Shown here one piece after another: positions 5,692-14,722 of a stretch of DNA of 64,000 nt. Source of the DNA: Solwaraspora sp. WMMD792 (GTDB taxonomy: Bacteria; Actinomycetota; Actinomycetes; Mycobacteriales; Micromonosporaceae); assembly GCF_029626105.1 (NCBI RefSeq), contig NZ_JARUBH010000009.1, positions 806,001 through 870,000 on the forward strand. Direction: 5' to 3'. Below the pieces are notes generated by a model. That model was not told where the DNA came from. It ran no database searches and worked only from the letters and a program-made list of their open reading frames with translations. How positions within the stretch are numbered: position 1 is the stretch's first letter; the number at the start of each line of letters is the position of its first letter. The position numbers and the translations under genes were made by a program.

Positions 5692-6505
5692 ACGCCAGCG
5701 TGGCGGAGTAGCCGGCTAGCACGATCACGTGCAGCAGGTAGAGCCAGAGCAGCACCGCGACCGCCGCGCCGACCTGGTCGAGCCCGCCGAACGGCACCCC
5801 GAGGTCCAGCGGCAGGGAACAGAACAGGATGAACCCGTGCAGGAATCCGGACAGGTTGGCGGCGGTGAACGAGCCGACCGCGACGGTGGCCAGCCAGTCC
5901 GGTTTGCCCGGCCCGACCACCCGGAAGACCCAGACCAGCACCGGGCTCAGCCCCAGCCAGACGGCCAGGAACGACACCACCACCCCGAGCGCGCCGGCCC
6001 AGCCGCCCCGGGCGAACAGCCCAGCGGCCGACGGTAGGGCCAGCAGCACCAGCAGCATCAGCGCCGGTGCCGCGCCGAGCAGCGGCAGCAGCAGCACCCG
6101 GCCCCGCCAGCCGACCATCGACTCGGCCGGCTCCGGCGGTGGCGCCACCGACACGAACGCCCGGCGCAGCCCTTCACCGTACAGCGAGGCGGGCAGCAGC
6201 GCGGCCAGCGCCAGCACCGGGGTGAGGTGCAGGCCGGCGTCGATCAGGGCGGCGGCGGCCCGGTCGGCGCCGATCTGTCCGGGCAGGGTGTCGATCGCTG
6301 GGTCGGTGAGCCGGCGGATCCGGCCCGCACCGGCGAACAGCCCGGTCAGCCAGATCGCCAGCAGCACCACCGGGACGACCGCGATCGCGCCGAAGAAGGT
6401 GATCGAGGCGGCGTGCAACGACAGGTCCCGCCCGCGCAGCGGCCGGAACGCTGCCCGGACCAGCCGGGACGCTGCCCGGACGAGCCGGCGACCTCGGGAG
6501 ACCAT
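5468..6505 (-). CDS. YihY/BrkB-like integral membrane protein
   Basis: 345 residues. Residues 1-270 hold about six hydrophobic segments with the YihY-type layout, including the SITFFGAIAVVPVVLL first helix and DQVGAAVAVLLWLYLL near the end of the core. Function of the family is not settled. The last 75 residues are a Pro/Thr/Ala/Arg-rich low-complexity tail encoded antisense to the end of the convergent MMPL gene, so the two genes overlap by 224 bp; the tail may simply be read-through sequence kept open by high GC. ATG 6505 has a purine-rich upstream stretch (GGGGAAAG) at usable distance. Confidence 0.7.
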   Translation of the reverse strand: MVSRGRRLVRAASRLVRAAFRPLRGRDLSLHAASITFFGAIAVVPVVLLAIWLTGLFAGAGRIRRLTDPAIDTLPGQIGADRAAAALIDAGLHLTPVLALAALLPASLYGEGLRRAFVSVAPPPEPAESMVGWRGRVLLLPLLGAAPALMLLVLLALPSAAGLFARGGWAGALGVVVSFLAVWLGLSPVLVWVFRVVGPGKPDWLATVAVGSFTAANLSGFLHGFILFCSLPLDLGVPFGGLDQVGAAVAVLLWLYLLHVIVLAGYSATLAFSRWRRRHRGRSRPTPTAAAPGSRAGRTGGTAGPTDPAPTSSTDPAAASSPAPAVPAPGSRRRRSPRSSRPRSA

Positions 6506-11198: not shown

Positions 11199-11290
11199 GC
11201 GGCCACTTCGCTGGTGCTGGCTGCTCGTTGCGACCGCCGGTGCCCGTCCCTCCGTGCCTGACCCGCAGGCACCCCACGGCGAGGAGCGAC

Positions 11291-13435
11291 ATGACTCAAC
11301 AGACAACGACGGCTCGCGGCAGACGGTGGCGTGCCGGCCTGATCGCCGGCGGTGTGACCGCCGCACTGGTCGGCGGTAGCGTCGCCGTCGCGGCCAGCGC
11401 GCACGCGGCCGCCGGCTGCCGGGTGGTCTACTCGGCACCCGCCCAGTGGCCCGGCGGCTTCACCGCCAGCGTGAACGTCACCAACCTGGGCGACCCGCTC
11501 AACGGCTGGCAGCTGACCTGGGCCTTCCCGTCCGGACAGCAGGTCACCCAGGCCTGGAACGCCACCGTCACTAGCTCGGGCAGCCAGGTAACCGCGACCA
11601 ACGTCAGCTACAACGCCAACCTCGGCACCAACGCGACCGTCTCGTTCGGCTTCAACGGCTCATGGTCGGGTAGCAACACCGCGCCGAGCTCGTTCGCGCT
11701 CAACGGCGTCACCTGCACCGGCAGCGTGGGCCCGACCACGCCCCCACCGACCGACCCACCGTCGCCGACGGTACCGCCGACCACCGCGCCGCCGTCCCCG
11801 ACGCCGACCACCACCCCGCGTCCGCCGGGTGACCCGCAGGACGTCGTCGACGCGATGCAGCCGGGCTGGAACCTGGGCAACACCCTCGACGCGACCGGCG
11901 ACAACGTCGGCGGCAGCGGCGAGACCTCCTGGGGCAACCCGCTGGTCACCCAGGACCTGATCCGCACCATCAAGTCGCAGGGCTTCAACAGCATCCGGAT
12001 CCCGACGACCTGGACGCACCACCACGGCGGCGCGCCCAACTACACGATCGATCCCACCCGGCTCGCCCGGGTGAAGCAGATCGTCGACTGGGCCCTCGCC
12101 GAGGACCTGTACGTGATGATCAACCTGCACCACGACTCGTGGCAGTGGATCAACACGATGCCGAGCAACCGCACCGGCGTCCTGGCCCGCTACTCGGCGC
12201 TGTGGACCCAGCTGGCGAACACCTTCCGCGACTCGTCGCCGAAGCTGCACTTCGAGAGCGTCAACGAGCCGCAGTTCAGCAACAGCTCCGGCGATGCCCA
12301 GAACGCCCAGCTGCTCGACGAGCTGAACCGCAGGTTCCACCAGATCGTCCGCAACTCCGGCGGCAACAACGCCACCCGGCTGCTCATCCTGCCGACCCTG
12401 CACACCTCGTCCGACCAGGCCCGGCTCGACGAGCTCGCCAGCACCTTCACCGCACTCGACGACCCCAACCTGATCGCCACGGTGCACTACTACGGCTACT
12501 GGCCGTTCAGCGTCAACGTCGCCGGCGGCTACCGTTTCGACGCCACCGCCCAGCAGGACGTGATCGACTCGCTCAACCGGGTGCAGAACACCTTCGTCTC
12601 CCGGGGCATCCCGGTCGTCATCGGCGAGTTCGGTCTGCTCGGCTTCGACCGGCACACCGGCACCATCCAGCAGGGCGAGAAACTGAAGTTCTTCGAGTTC
12701 TTCGGCTACCACACCCGGACCCGCGGCATCGCCACCCAGCTGTGGGACAACGGCCAGCACCTCGGCCGGACCAGCTTCCAGTGGAGCGACCCGGAGCTGA
12801 TCGCCCAGATCAAGTCGGCCTGGACCACCCGCTCCGGCACTGCCGCCAGCGACATGATCTTCGTGCCGCGGACCGGCGGCGTCACCGCGAAGACCCTCGC
12901 GTTGAACCTCAACGGGCTGACCTTCCAGGGGCTGCGGCAGGGCAACACCGACCTGGTCCGGGGGACCGACTACACGGTCAGCGGCAATCAGTTGACGCTG
13001 CCCGCGTCCACCGTCACCCGCCTGGTCGGCAACCGGGCGTACGGGGTGAACGCCACCCTGCACGCCCGCTTTTCGTCCGGCGTACCGTGGCGGATCAACA
13101 TCATCTCGTCGGATCCGCCGGTACTGGCCAACGCGAGCGGCACCACCTCGTCGTTCAACATTCCGACGACCTTCCGCGGTGACCAGCTGGCCACCATGGA
13201 AGCCCGGTACGCCGACGGTTCCAACGCCGGCCCGCACAACTGGACGTCGTACAAGGAGTTCGACGTCACCTTCCGGCCGAACTACGCCGCGAACACCATC
13301 ACCCTGACGTCGGAGTTCTTCGCCGAGGTCAACGACGGTGCCCCGGTGACGCTCACCTTCCATTTCTGGAGCGGCACGACGATCACCTACACCGTCGTAC
13401 GTAACGGTTCGTCGGTGACCGGCACCACCTCGTAA
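11291..13435 (+). CDS. Secreted modular cellulase/endoglucanase: CBM2-GH5-X2-CBM46
   Basis: 714 residues. Signal peptide to about residue 40 (hydrophobic core then SAHAAAG). CBM2 at 41-142 with conserved Trp and N/C-terminal Cys. Pro/Thr linker 145-177. GH5 catalytic domain about 180-510: GWNLGNTLDAT, INLHHDSW, acid/base Glu in FESVNEPQF, nucleophile Glu in VVIGEFGLLGF, and LWDNGQH. C-terminal X2/Ig-like module about 520-605 and a CBM46-like beta module to the end. The GH5-X2-CBM46 order is that of subfamily GH5_4 endoglucanases/xyloglucanases such as Bacillus BhCel5B. Export and binding to plant cell wall glucans is the likely role. ATG 11291 has GAGGAG 5 nt upstream. Confidence 0.92.
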   Translation: MTQQTTTARGRRWRAGLIAGGVTAALVGGSVAVAASAHAAAGCRVVYSAPAQWPGGFTASVNVTNLGDPLNGWQLTWAFPSGQQVTQAWNATVTSSGSQVTATNVSYNANLGTNATVSFGFNGSWSGSNTAPSSFALNGVTCTGSVGPTTPPPTDPPSPTVPPTTAPPSPTPTTTPRPPGDPQDVVDAMQPGWNLGNTLDATGDNVGGSGETSWGNPLVTQDLIRTIKSQGFNSIRIPTTWTHHHGGAPNYTIDPTRLARVKQIVDWALAEDLYVMINLHHDSWQWINTMPSNRTGVLARYSALWTQLANTFRDSSPKLHFESVNEPQFSNSSGDAQNAQLLDELNRRFHQIVRNSGGNNATRLLILPTLHTSSDQARLDELASTFTALDDPNLIATVHYYGYWPFSVNVAGGYRFDATAQQDVIDSLNRVQNTFVSRGIPVVIGEFGLLGFDRHTGTIQQGEKLKFFEFFGYHTRTRGIATQLWDNGQHLGRTSFQWSDPELIAQIKSAWTTRSGTAASDMIFVPRTGGVTAKTLALNLNGLTFQGLRQGNTDLVRGTDYTVSGNQLTLPASTVTRLVGNRAYGVNATLHARFSSGVPWRINIISSDPPVLANASGTTSSFNIPTTFRGDQLATMEARYADGSNAGPHNWTSYKEFDVTFRPNYAANTITLTSEFFAEVNDGAPVTLTFHFWSGTTITYTVVRNGSSVTGTTS

Positions 13436-13448
13436 CATCTTCCCAGCA

Positions 13449-13487
13449 CCGGTGGGTGCCGCCGACACACCCGGCGGCACCCACCGG
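13449..13487 (+). terminator. Terminator of the cellulase gene
   Basis: Perfect hairpin with 16-bp arms (CCGGTGGGTGCCGCCG and complement) and a 7-nt loop, beginning 14 nt after the cellulase stop. It lies between this gene and the convergent MerR/cysteine peptide unit and could serve both. Confidence 0.8.
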
Positions 13488-13520
13488 CCCGGTACCCACC
13501 CGGCCCTGAGGGCCGACTGG

Positions 13521-13583
13521 TCAGCAGCAGTCCGGCCCGCAGCAGTCCGGCTCGCAGTCGCAGCGCGTGGTCAGCTCCAGCAT
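13521..13583 (-). CDS. Cysteine-rich 20-residue peptide, metallothionein-like, coupled to merR
   Basis: The full product is MLELTTRCDCEPDCCGPDCC, 20 residues with six cysteines (8, 10, 14, 15, 19, 20) and five acidic residues. It is preceded by a near-perfect Shine-Dalgarno sequence GGGAGGTGATC ending 3 nt before the ATG; this sequence overlaps the stop codon of the MerR gene, so the two should be translationally coupled. C-x-C and C-C-G-P-D-C-C resemble metal-thiolate ligands of small metallothioneins. Inference: a metal-buffering or metal-sensing microprotein made under MerR control. I know no named family for it; it could instead be an unselected ORF, but the strong ribosome site argues against that. 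Confidence 0.6.
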   Translation of the reverse strand: MLELTTRCDCEPDCCGPDCC

Positions 13584-13588
13584 CGTGA

Positions 13589-14098
13589 TCACCTCCCGTC
13601 CCCATCCGGTGGGCACCATCGCCCCGGTTCCGGCGGCGGGCAGGCCGCCGTCGGCAGCTTCTCGGCCATCTCCGCCATCTCCGCCCGTAGCGCGGTCAGC
13701 CGGGCCAGCTCCACGTCGACCTCGGCGATTCGGCGGCGCAGTAGCTGCTCCGCCGGCTCACACGGGCAGACACCGGTGTCCCGGACGGCGAGCAGATCGG
13801 CGATCTCCCGCAGCCGGAGCCCGAGCCGCTGACAGCCCCGGATGAACCGGAGCCGGTCGACCGCAGCGGTGCCGTACACCCGGTAACCGGTGGGGGTCCG
13901 CTCCGGCGGGTGCAGCAGCCCGGCCCGTTCGTAGTAGCGGACGGTGTCCGGCGACACGCCGACAGCGGCGGCGAGCGCGGCGACCCGCAGGCCGTTCCGC
14001 TCGGCAGCGGCCCCGGATCCACCGGTCCCGGACGCGTCGCCCGCCCCGGCGGCGCAGCTGGTGCGGTCGAGAATCTCGACTCTGGTGCCCGTGGTCAT
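13589..14098 (-). CDS. MerR-family transcriptional regulator (metal/thiol-responsive type)
   Basis: 169 residues. An Ala/Gly-rich N-terminal extension of about 30 residues precedes the MerR winged HTH (LRVAALAAAVGVSPDTVRYYERAGLLHPP, GYRVYGTAAVDRLRFI). A dimerisation helix follows (LLRRRIAEVDVELARLTALRAEM). Cysteines in VCPCEPAEQ, at the start of that helix, and two more near the C-terminus sit where metal ligands occur in MerR, CadR and ZntR. Effector unknown, probably a soft metal or thiol stress. Its operator-promoter at 14107-14137 lies immediately upstream, so it is likely autoregulated and may also control the divergent DinB-like gene and the downstream cysteine-rich peptide. ATG 14098 begins the ORF just inside the operator. 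Confidence 0.85.
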   Translation of the reverse strand: MTTGTRVEILDRTSCAAGAGDASGTGGSGAAAERNGLRVAALAAAVGVSPDTVRYYERAGLLHPPERTPTGYRVYGTAAVDRLRFIRGCQRLGLRLREIADLLAVRDTGVCPCEPAEQLLRRRIAEVDVELARLTALRAEMAEMAEKLPTAACPPPEPGRWCPPDGDGR

Positions 14099-14106
14099 GA
14101 TGACGA

Positions 14107-14137
14107 CGGTAGACCTCGGAGTGCACTCCAAGGTCAA
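14107..14137 (-). promoter_or_regulatory. MerR-type operator/promoter with long spacer
   Basis: Read on the minus strand: -35 TTGACC (14137-14132), then an 18-19-nt spacer containing a near-perfect dyad ACCTTGGAGTG/CACTCCGAGGT (14134-14113, one mismatched pair), then -10 TCTACC/CTACCG (14113-14107). An over-long spacer filled by the dyad is the signature of promoters activated by MerR-family proteins. It sits between the MerR gene and the divergent DinB-like gene. Confidence 0.7.
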
Positions 14138-14173
14138 GCCGAAATTTGCTGGCCGTGCCGGAGCGGCCCGTCG

Positions 14174-14722
14174 ATGATGGCCGACATGACGATCGACATG
14201 TTTACCGACCCGGACGCCGATCCGCGTGCCATTCCGCCCCGGCTCGGCGACGAGCGGGCCACCCTCGCCGGGTTTCTCGACTGGCACCGCCGGACCCTGG
14301 AGCTCAAGTGCGGCGGACTCGACCCGCAGCAGTTGGCCCGCCGGTCGGTGCAGCCGTCGGGGCTGTCGCTGCTCGGGCTGGTGCGGCACCTCGCCGACGT
14401 GGAACGTTACTGGTTCCGACAGGTGATGGCCGGCGAGGACGCCCCGCCCCGCTTCTACTCCCAGACCGCACCCAATGACGACTTCGACGGTTCCGTCGCC
14501 GACCCGGCGGCCGTCACCCGGGCGTGGGCGGCATGGCGGGAGGAGGTCGAGTACGCCGAGCGCTTCGTCGCCGACGCCGCCGGACTGGACGTCACCGGCT
14601 CCGACCGGCGCGGCCCGATCTCGCTGCGCTGGGTGCTGACCCACATGATCGAGGAGTACGCCCGGCACAACGGCCACGCCGACCTGTTGCGGGAATGCAT
14701 CGACGGGGCGGTCGGCCAGTAG
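14174..14722 (+). CDS. DinB-like (DUF664) four-helix protein, putative thiol-dependent enzyme
   Basis: 182 residues. DinB/MDMPI fold markers: FLDWHRRTLELKCGGL, the first His ligand in LVRHLADVERYWF, and H-x-x-x-H-x-x-H near the end (RWVLTHMIEEYARHNGHADLL). Proteins of this actinobacterial family bind a divalent metal through three histidines, and several are mycothiol-dependent transferases; a detoxification role is therefore plausible, and the shared MerR-type operator region supports that. Substrate unknown. Three in-frame ATGs are possible; 14174 is chosen because GGAGCGG at 14159-14165 has 8-nt spacing. Confidence 0.8.
   Translation: MMADMTIDMFTDPDADPRAIPPRLGDERATLAGFLDWHRRTLELKCGGLDPQQLARRSVQPSGLSLLGLVRHLADVERYWFRQVMAGEDAPPRFYSQTAPNDDFDGSVADPAAVTRAWAAWREEVEYAERFVADAAGLDVTGSDRRGPISLRWVLTHMIEEYARHNGHADLLRECIDGAVGQ

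Follow-up and report, generated by a model that had tools for sequence, protein, structure and literature searches.

A gene for a MerR-family regulator and, directly behind it, a reading frame for a very short cysteine-rich peptide make up a compact unit that is kept together in relatives of the organism sequenced here. We think it probable that this unit is a self-contained, metal-activated sensor-plus-sink operon, in which the peptide serves as a metallothionein-like buffer and feeds back on the sensor by removing metal. The recurrence of the pair across the phylum, in differing neighborhoods, suggests a tiny metal sponge that is switched on by its sensor.

Layout of the unit in the window

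The window (the whole 64-kb stretch of DNA analyzed here) carries the unit on its minus strand, from 14138 down to 13449, as a MerR-type promoter, merR, a 20-codon Cys-rich ORF and a strong hairpin. The features are listed in Table 1.

Table 1. Features of the merR-micropeptide locus and its flanks, with positions in the window
Feature	Position	Strand	Basis
MerR-type operator/promoter facing merR	14106..14138	-	lone site in own genome at <=3 mismatches; scores at least 20/29
MerR-family regulator, 169 aa plus stop, with CPCEPA (C111, C113) and CPPPEPGRWC (C153, C162)	13589..14098	-	profile, structure-sequence and alignment comparisons
Shine-Dalgarno-like GGGAGGTGATC over the MerR stop codon	13587..13597	-	sequence; also loci of relatives
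Cys-rich micro-ORF MLELTTRCDCEPDCCGPDCC, stop included	13521..13583	-	sequence, conservation and codon analysis
Strong hairpin between micro-ORF and convergent gene	13449..13488	-	-39.5 kcal/mol, z -5.7 against mononucleotide shuffles
Convergent gene, partial match to exoglucanase CbhB	11228-13435	+	profile search
Divergent neighbor, PF04978 mycothiol-S-transferase-like; outside the conserved unit	14174..14722	+	profile search and neighborhood comparison

The promoter consists of a -35 element, TTGACC (14132-14137), and a -10 element, TACCGT (14106-14111), separated by a 20-bp spacer, TTGGAGTGCACTCCGAGGTC, that contains the palindrome TTGGAGTGCACTCCGAGG. This is the arrangement of MerR operators, in which the palindrome lies within a promoter spacer of 19-20 bp. 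The ATG of merR lies 7 nt past the -10 box; its codons run from 14098 to 13592 and end in a TGA at 13591-13589. The micro-ORF follows with an ATG at 13583-13581 and a TGA at 13523-13521, and 6 of its 20 residues are Cys. Through the Shine-Dalgarno (SD) sequence that overlaps the MerR stop, translation of the micro-ORF would be coupled to that of merR. An earlier note on this DNA had pointed to a six-Cys, 20-codon ORF directly after merR with a ribosome site over the MerR stop, and its coordinates and sequence agree with those given here. It had also combined the MerR identity, the long-spacer promoter and the coupled Cys peptide into a single module; all three are present and are conserved together among relatives.

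With the convergent gene lying beyond it, the micro-ORF closes the run of genes on its strand in the window. The hairpin between the two is a probable terminator. Scans of 13400-14300 for T-tract terminators and sigma-70 promoters gave no match, and an Rfam scan of eight loci gave none at gathering score.

Pairing of CPC-type merR genes with the micro-ORF

Relatives were gathered on MerR similarity alone. The source sets, which overlap, were 33 of 300 genomes of the family, 33 loci from genome contigs, 16 of 394 genomes of the class, 2 of 22, 7 of 297 and 2 of 297 genomes of three orders, 5 of 7 genomes of the window's own genus, 17 of 22 of a second genus, and four plasmid records. L014, from a genome of the same family, is a duplicate of L042 from Phytohabitans maris, which makes Micromonosporaceae the probable family. 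After some rows were removed, 97 distinct loci were left, 59 of them with a C[PA]CEPA motif and 38 without. The region behind each MerR stop was then judged by a strict rule: an SD (AGGAGG-like, at least 5/6 matching, 3-12 nt ahead of the start), a start near the MerR stop, and at least 4 Cys amounting to at least 22% Cys.

An ORF of this description was found in 53 of the 59 C[PA]CEPA loci, whereas mononucleotide shuffling of the 200 nt behind the MerR stop gave one in 33 of 11,800 cases. Three of the six misses carry the peptide anyway: L050 has a GTG start and an SD that is too close, L075 has less than 22% Cys, and L072 (genome G329) encodes it as an in-frame extension of the MerR C-terminus that still has the SD and the ATG. 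A fourth, L030, has a disrupted micro-ORF within 80 nt of the MerR stop, with a start like that of its relatives and the Cys-rich tail gone; other members of its group retain an intact micro-ORF. The last two, L090 and L091, have no peptide ORF. Only L123, which has a CPCESA motif, passes the strict rule among the 38 remaining loci. A Cys-rich ORF of 11-32 codons thus stands at the MerR stop in 57 of 60 C[PA]CE[PS]A loci (the 53 strict matches, L050, L075, the L072 fusion and L123) and in none of the 37 other MerR loci. Elsewhere in these loci the same type of ORF with an SD was not found in 445,464 strand-bases. The position is also regular, with 52 of the 56 non-fused micro-ORFs starting within 15 nt of the MerR stop.

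By tblastx of their flanks the 60 loci fall into 30 neighborhood clusters, and the peptide is present in 29 of these. Neighboring genes are, with few exceptions, common to close relatives only, indicating that merR and the micro-ORF are themselves the unit. An explanation of the pair by a conserved neighbor was set aside, as the neighbors differ between clusters. By a crude ORF call from GC at codon positions, 37 of 56 loci, among them the window, have a convergent first gene downstream and 19 a co-directional one; in these 19 loci the operon may be longer. On a MerR tree built on 140 columns, the bootstrap of which had not settled, the peptide label needs three changes (3-4 in the bootstrap, against a mean of 14.8 for shuffled labels), and the controls are set apart by a branch whose support is weak to moderate (62/84).

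The peptides, 56 distinct ones in all, are 11-32 residues long and contain 5-10 Cys. Their overall composition is 33.7% Cys, 21.1% Asp plus Glu, 1.1% His and 0.4% Tyr plus Phe, and the gap between adjacent Cys is 0-4 residues in 350 of 352 cases. They resemble metallothioneins in composition, being short, with about 30% Cys, few aromatic residues and closely spaced Cys. No Pfam family was matched by seven peptides at E <=10 and no NCBIfam family by eight, which is weak evidence with queries this short; one 29-aa peptide had no match among PDB sequences.

Selection acts on the Cys codons. Over all codons, pN/pS in five groups of sequences was 0.37, 0.38, 0.25, 0.38 and 0.47. At Cys codons, pS and pN were 0.223 and 0.000 in one genus (12 sequences), 0.333 and 0.000 (3 sequences), 0.689 and 0.056 (6 sequences), and 0.462 and 0.058 (3 sequences), so that pN/pS was 0-0.12 in the four groups that vary at these codons. 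The own-genus group (5 sequences) gives no ratio because its Cys codons are invariant. The remaining codons are loosely constrained, with pN/pS of 0.52, 0.49, 0.34, 0.87 and 0.74 in the five groups. As Cys codons change almost only synonymously and the others are held less tightly, the constraint lies chiefly on the cysteines. The conservation that the earlier note had proposed as a check, that of the ORF and its Cys codons next to merR orthologs, is thus borne out, with the ORF in 57 of 60 loci and nearly all changes at Cys codons synonymous. The exact Cys spacing to which it drew attention is kept in the five loci of the window's genus. That spacing is not retained between distant groups, and distant relatives keep only the Cys richness, the acidity and the shortness.

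Sensor, operator and alternative outputs

The regulator scores above the gathering threshold for three MerR domains, PF13411 (68.3 bits), PF09278 (62.7) and PF00376 (58.1). Four named equivalogs gave scores below their cut-offs: MerR(Hg) (94.6 bits, cut-off 150.85), ZntR (80.6, 167.95), CadR-PbrR (84.1, 151.45) and CueR (66.3, 147.4). The best sequence matches among solved structures were 4ua1 (listed as Regulatory protein, which we take to be a MerR), 5crl (MerR) and CadR entries. Within the CPC family, C111 and C113 are present in 60 of 60 loci, C153 in 57 and C162 in 56, the last being lost in L089, L090, L091 and L095; offsets of +40 and +49 from the second Cys of the CPC motif occur in 47 of 60. 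C113 aligns with a Cys of all 13 control regulators and C162 is likewise found in 13 of 13, whereas C111 is special to the CPC family. In the biochemistry of MerR proteins, a Cys at the C113 position points to divalent soft metals over Cu(I). On this analogy, Zn, Cd, Pb or Hg would be a likelier ligand of the sensor than Cu(I). The protein shares with CadR, ZntR, PbrR and MerR the fold, the long-spacer promoter and Cys at conserved positions; it differs from them in the additional Cys of the CPC motif, in falling below the equivalog cut-offs, and in having an operator that appears to drive its own operon with a peptide.

An operator like that of the window scores at least 20/29 in 55 of the 60 loci, including L091, where the better side faces the other way. 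By this score L052 and L124 lack an operator within the part that was scanned, and L090, L096 and L097 miss 20/29 by one point. An in-frame start was found in 54 of the 55 scoring loci, and in 51 of these 54 it lies 6-7 nt after the -10 box. Given this short distance, merR probably has no leader and is probably driven by its own MerR-type promoter, while the micro-ORF has an SD. From its sequence, the pair of merR and micro-ORF looks like an auto-activated leaderless operon.

With up to 3 mismatches allowed, the genome of the window contains this operator only once. When 61 genomes were scanned more loosely, 23 match rows came up, spread over 17 genomes. Thirteen rows, from nine genomes, lie at the merR gene recovered by the family search, and of these nine genomes only G049 has an extra site. 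Genomes G002, G020 and G043 have the MerR and gave no operator match at the stringency of the looser scan. The other ten rows lie away from this merR. Of the six that were read, five have a MerR-like ORF of another kind or a membrane-protein-like ORF beside them. Such a MerR-like ORF, in divergent orientation, is found at L125, L127, L128 and L130, a small ORF that by eye resembles a membrane protein at L125, L126, L127 and L130, and neither type at L129. At L125 (about 1250), L127 and L130 (about 1200), all from the same family, a closely similar operator, CTTGACCTTGGAGC..ACTCCA, lies between the MerR-like and the small membrane-protein-like ORFs.

Two plasmids, Streptomyces pFRL4 (L090) and Mycobacteroides abscessus pGD22-1 (L091), carry a CPC-type MerR and no peptide, with a divergent gene for a heavy-metal P-type ATPase. 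Of a possible 33, their operators score higher on the side facing the ATPase (30 against 26 in L090, 29 against 27 in L091). A near copy of L090 on pFRL3 (L142) likewise lacks the peptide and has the better side of the operator towards the ATPase. The plasmid ATPases exceed the cut-offs of both the cadmium and the copper subfamily. A search for close orthologs of the plasmid ATPase in 29 cassette genomes gave matches at E <=1e-60 in 27, none with more than 47% identity, and a search of phages for the L091 MerR gave no match. Inspected by eye, the ATPases of L090 (1778-3787) and L091 (1797-3812) have CSCS in the membrane region, and their short Cys-rich N-termini (CGCDDAC and CGGCGDSC) recall the missing micropeptide. 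The peptide is present on the Rhodococcus plasmids pGA1 and pGS01; their gene tables, which may be incomplete, list no gene at the micro-ORF.

A phylum-wide search found such loci in 10 of 396 genomes. Eight loci were new, L132 with CPCEPA and seven with CPCGHT, and each has the better-scoring side of its operator towards merR. Under a slightly looser rule the peptide is present in six of them, L135 and L136 being without it. L138 and L140, from genomes outside the class of the window organism, have a tandem pair of Cys-rich micro-ORFs; the second micro-ORF starts 53 nt (L138) and 80 nt (L140) from the first base of the MerR stop. In L136 the place of the micro-ORF is taken by a thioredoxin/glutaredoxin-like gene (1941-2219) that overlaps the stop of a CPCGHT-type merR. 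The replacement of the peptide by an ATPase or a thioredoxin-like gene suggests that one operator type serves different outputs. With the same type of operator next to either a pump or a peptide, efflux and sequestration become directly comparable.

Function of the peptide and relation to known systems

If the known mechanism of MerR proteins applies, the sensor would bind a soft metal at its own long-spacer promoter and activate it, and the resulting mRNA would begin at or beside the merR ATG. Ribosomes ending merR could reinitiate at the overlapping SD and make the Cys-dense peptide, of 20 residues in the window and 11-32 in relatives. This peptide may chelate metal as a metallothionein-like thiolate cluster. 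Chelation would lower the free metal and so reset the sensor. A broader proposal, tentative and in its full extent doubtful, is that micro-metallothioneins of 11-32 aa act throughout the phylum as a removable metal-binding tail of their own MerR, supplied in trans and serving as both buffer and feedback. Such tails would occur in tandem in some loci and fused in one, and over evolutionary time an efflux ATPase or a thioredoxin-like protein could take their place under the same operator type.

Combinations of a metal sensor with a metallothionein are known. In the cyanobacterial SmtB-SmtA system, a metal sensor controls an adjacent gene whose product is Cys-rich and binds metal. The sensor, SmtB, is a repressor of the ArsR type, and SmtA, with about 56 aa, has a defined fold. 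The two systems are alike in having a sensor and an adjacent Cys-rich product, but here the sensor is of the MerR type, the peptides have only 11-32 aa and are encoded downstream of the sensor gene, and the seven micropeptides tried had no Pfam match. MymT, the metallothionein of Mycobacterium tuberculosis, has about 53 aa. Its gene is under the autoregulated sensor RicR, which is CsoR-like and has several targets (PMC10961391). Both are actinobacterial systems with a sensor and a metallothionein-like product, but the unit described here has a single operator in its own genome and much shorter peptides. A literature search covering titles and the openings of abstracts, with most subscription papers outside its reach, returned no description of a merR-micropeptide pair, nor of a layout in which a MerR-type activator has its own operon as sole detected target in its genome and a Cys peptide as the only other product of that operon.

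If translated, these peptides would rank among the smallest metal-binding proteins that are gene-encoded. Reading frames of this length are passed over by gene finders, which makes the class easy to miss; more members can be sought by taking CPC-type MerR genes and reading beyond the stop codon. The pairing would also be a simple system in which to study how sensor and sink jointly set a metal threshold.

The main rival to a buffering role is a partnership between peptide and sensor, in which the peptide gives metal to the Cys site of MerR, or strips it from there, and so sets the threshold or the switch-off, much like an extra Cys tail. The tight pairing with one MerR subfamily, the start of the micro-ORF at the MerR stop and the in-frame fusion to the MerR C-terminus in L072 are all consistent with it. 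The fusion, however, comes from one genome, and the MerRs of plasmid loci L090 and L091 exist without a peptide, though both have lost C162. Beyond Cys and acidity the peptide sequence is barely conserved, as would be expected of bulk chelation more than of a specific contact, and we judge a dedicated partner to be rather unlikely.

Alternatively, the peptide could be a sink for thiol-redox stress or electrophiles, with a MerR that senses thiol-reactive compounds instead of metal. The mycothiol-S-transferase-like gene divergent from the window's merR and the thioredoxin/glutaredoxin-like gene of L136 agree with such a role. Against it, neighboring genes are not common to the clusters, L090, L091 and L142 have a heavy-metal P-type ATPase as their alternative output, and the Cys positions of the sensor are like those of metal-thiolate MerRs; a thiol sink therefore seems improbable.

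Short polycysteine ORFs of mycobacteria are reported to be leaderless and to attenuate operonic genes (Canestrari 2020, as cited in PMC9094748), and the micro-ORF might similarly be a cysteine-responsive attenuator for which translation, and not the product, matters. The mycobacterial ORFs are likewise short, Cys-dense and actinobacterial. Dense Cys codons with constraint mostly upon them would also be expected of an attenuator, and a hairpin with z <= -2 lies downstream of the micro-ORF in 29 of 57 loci. Here, however, the micro-ORF lies after merR and not in a leader, it begins with an SD (53 strict matches) and is not leaderless, and in most loci the first downstream gene, as in the window, is convergent. 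Attenuation is very improbable on these grounds.

A chance ORF from GC-rich sequence, for which only the extreme shortness and the lack of a family match could speak, has practically no probability given the rarity of such ORFs in shuffles, their absence from the background and the conserved pairing.

Hairpins lie 3' of the micro-ORF in other loci too, and in several genera their loop region has the motif CCGAGCGCGCCGG. The motif occurs once in the window at 5985-5997, and at one mismatch it is not rare by chance in the window.
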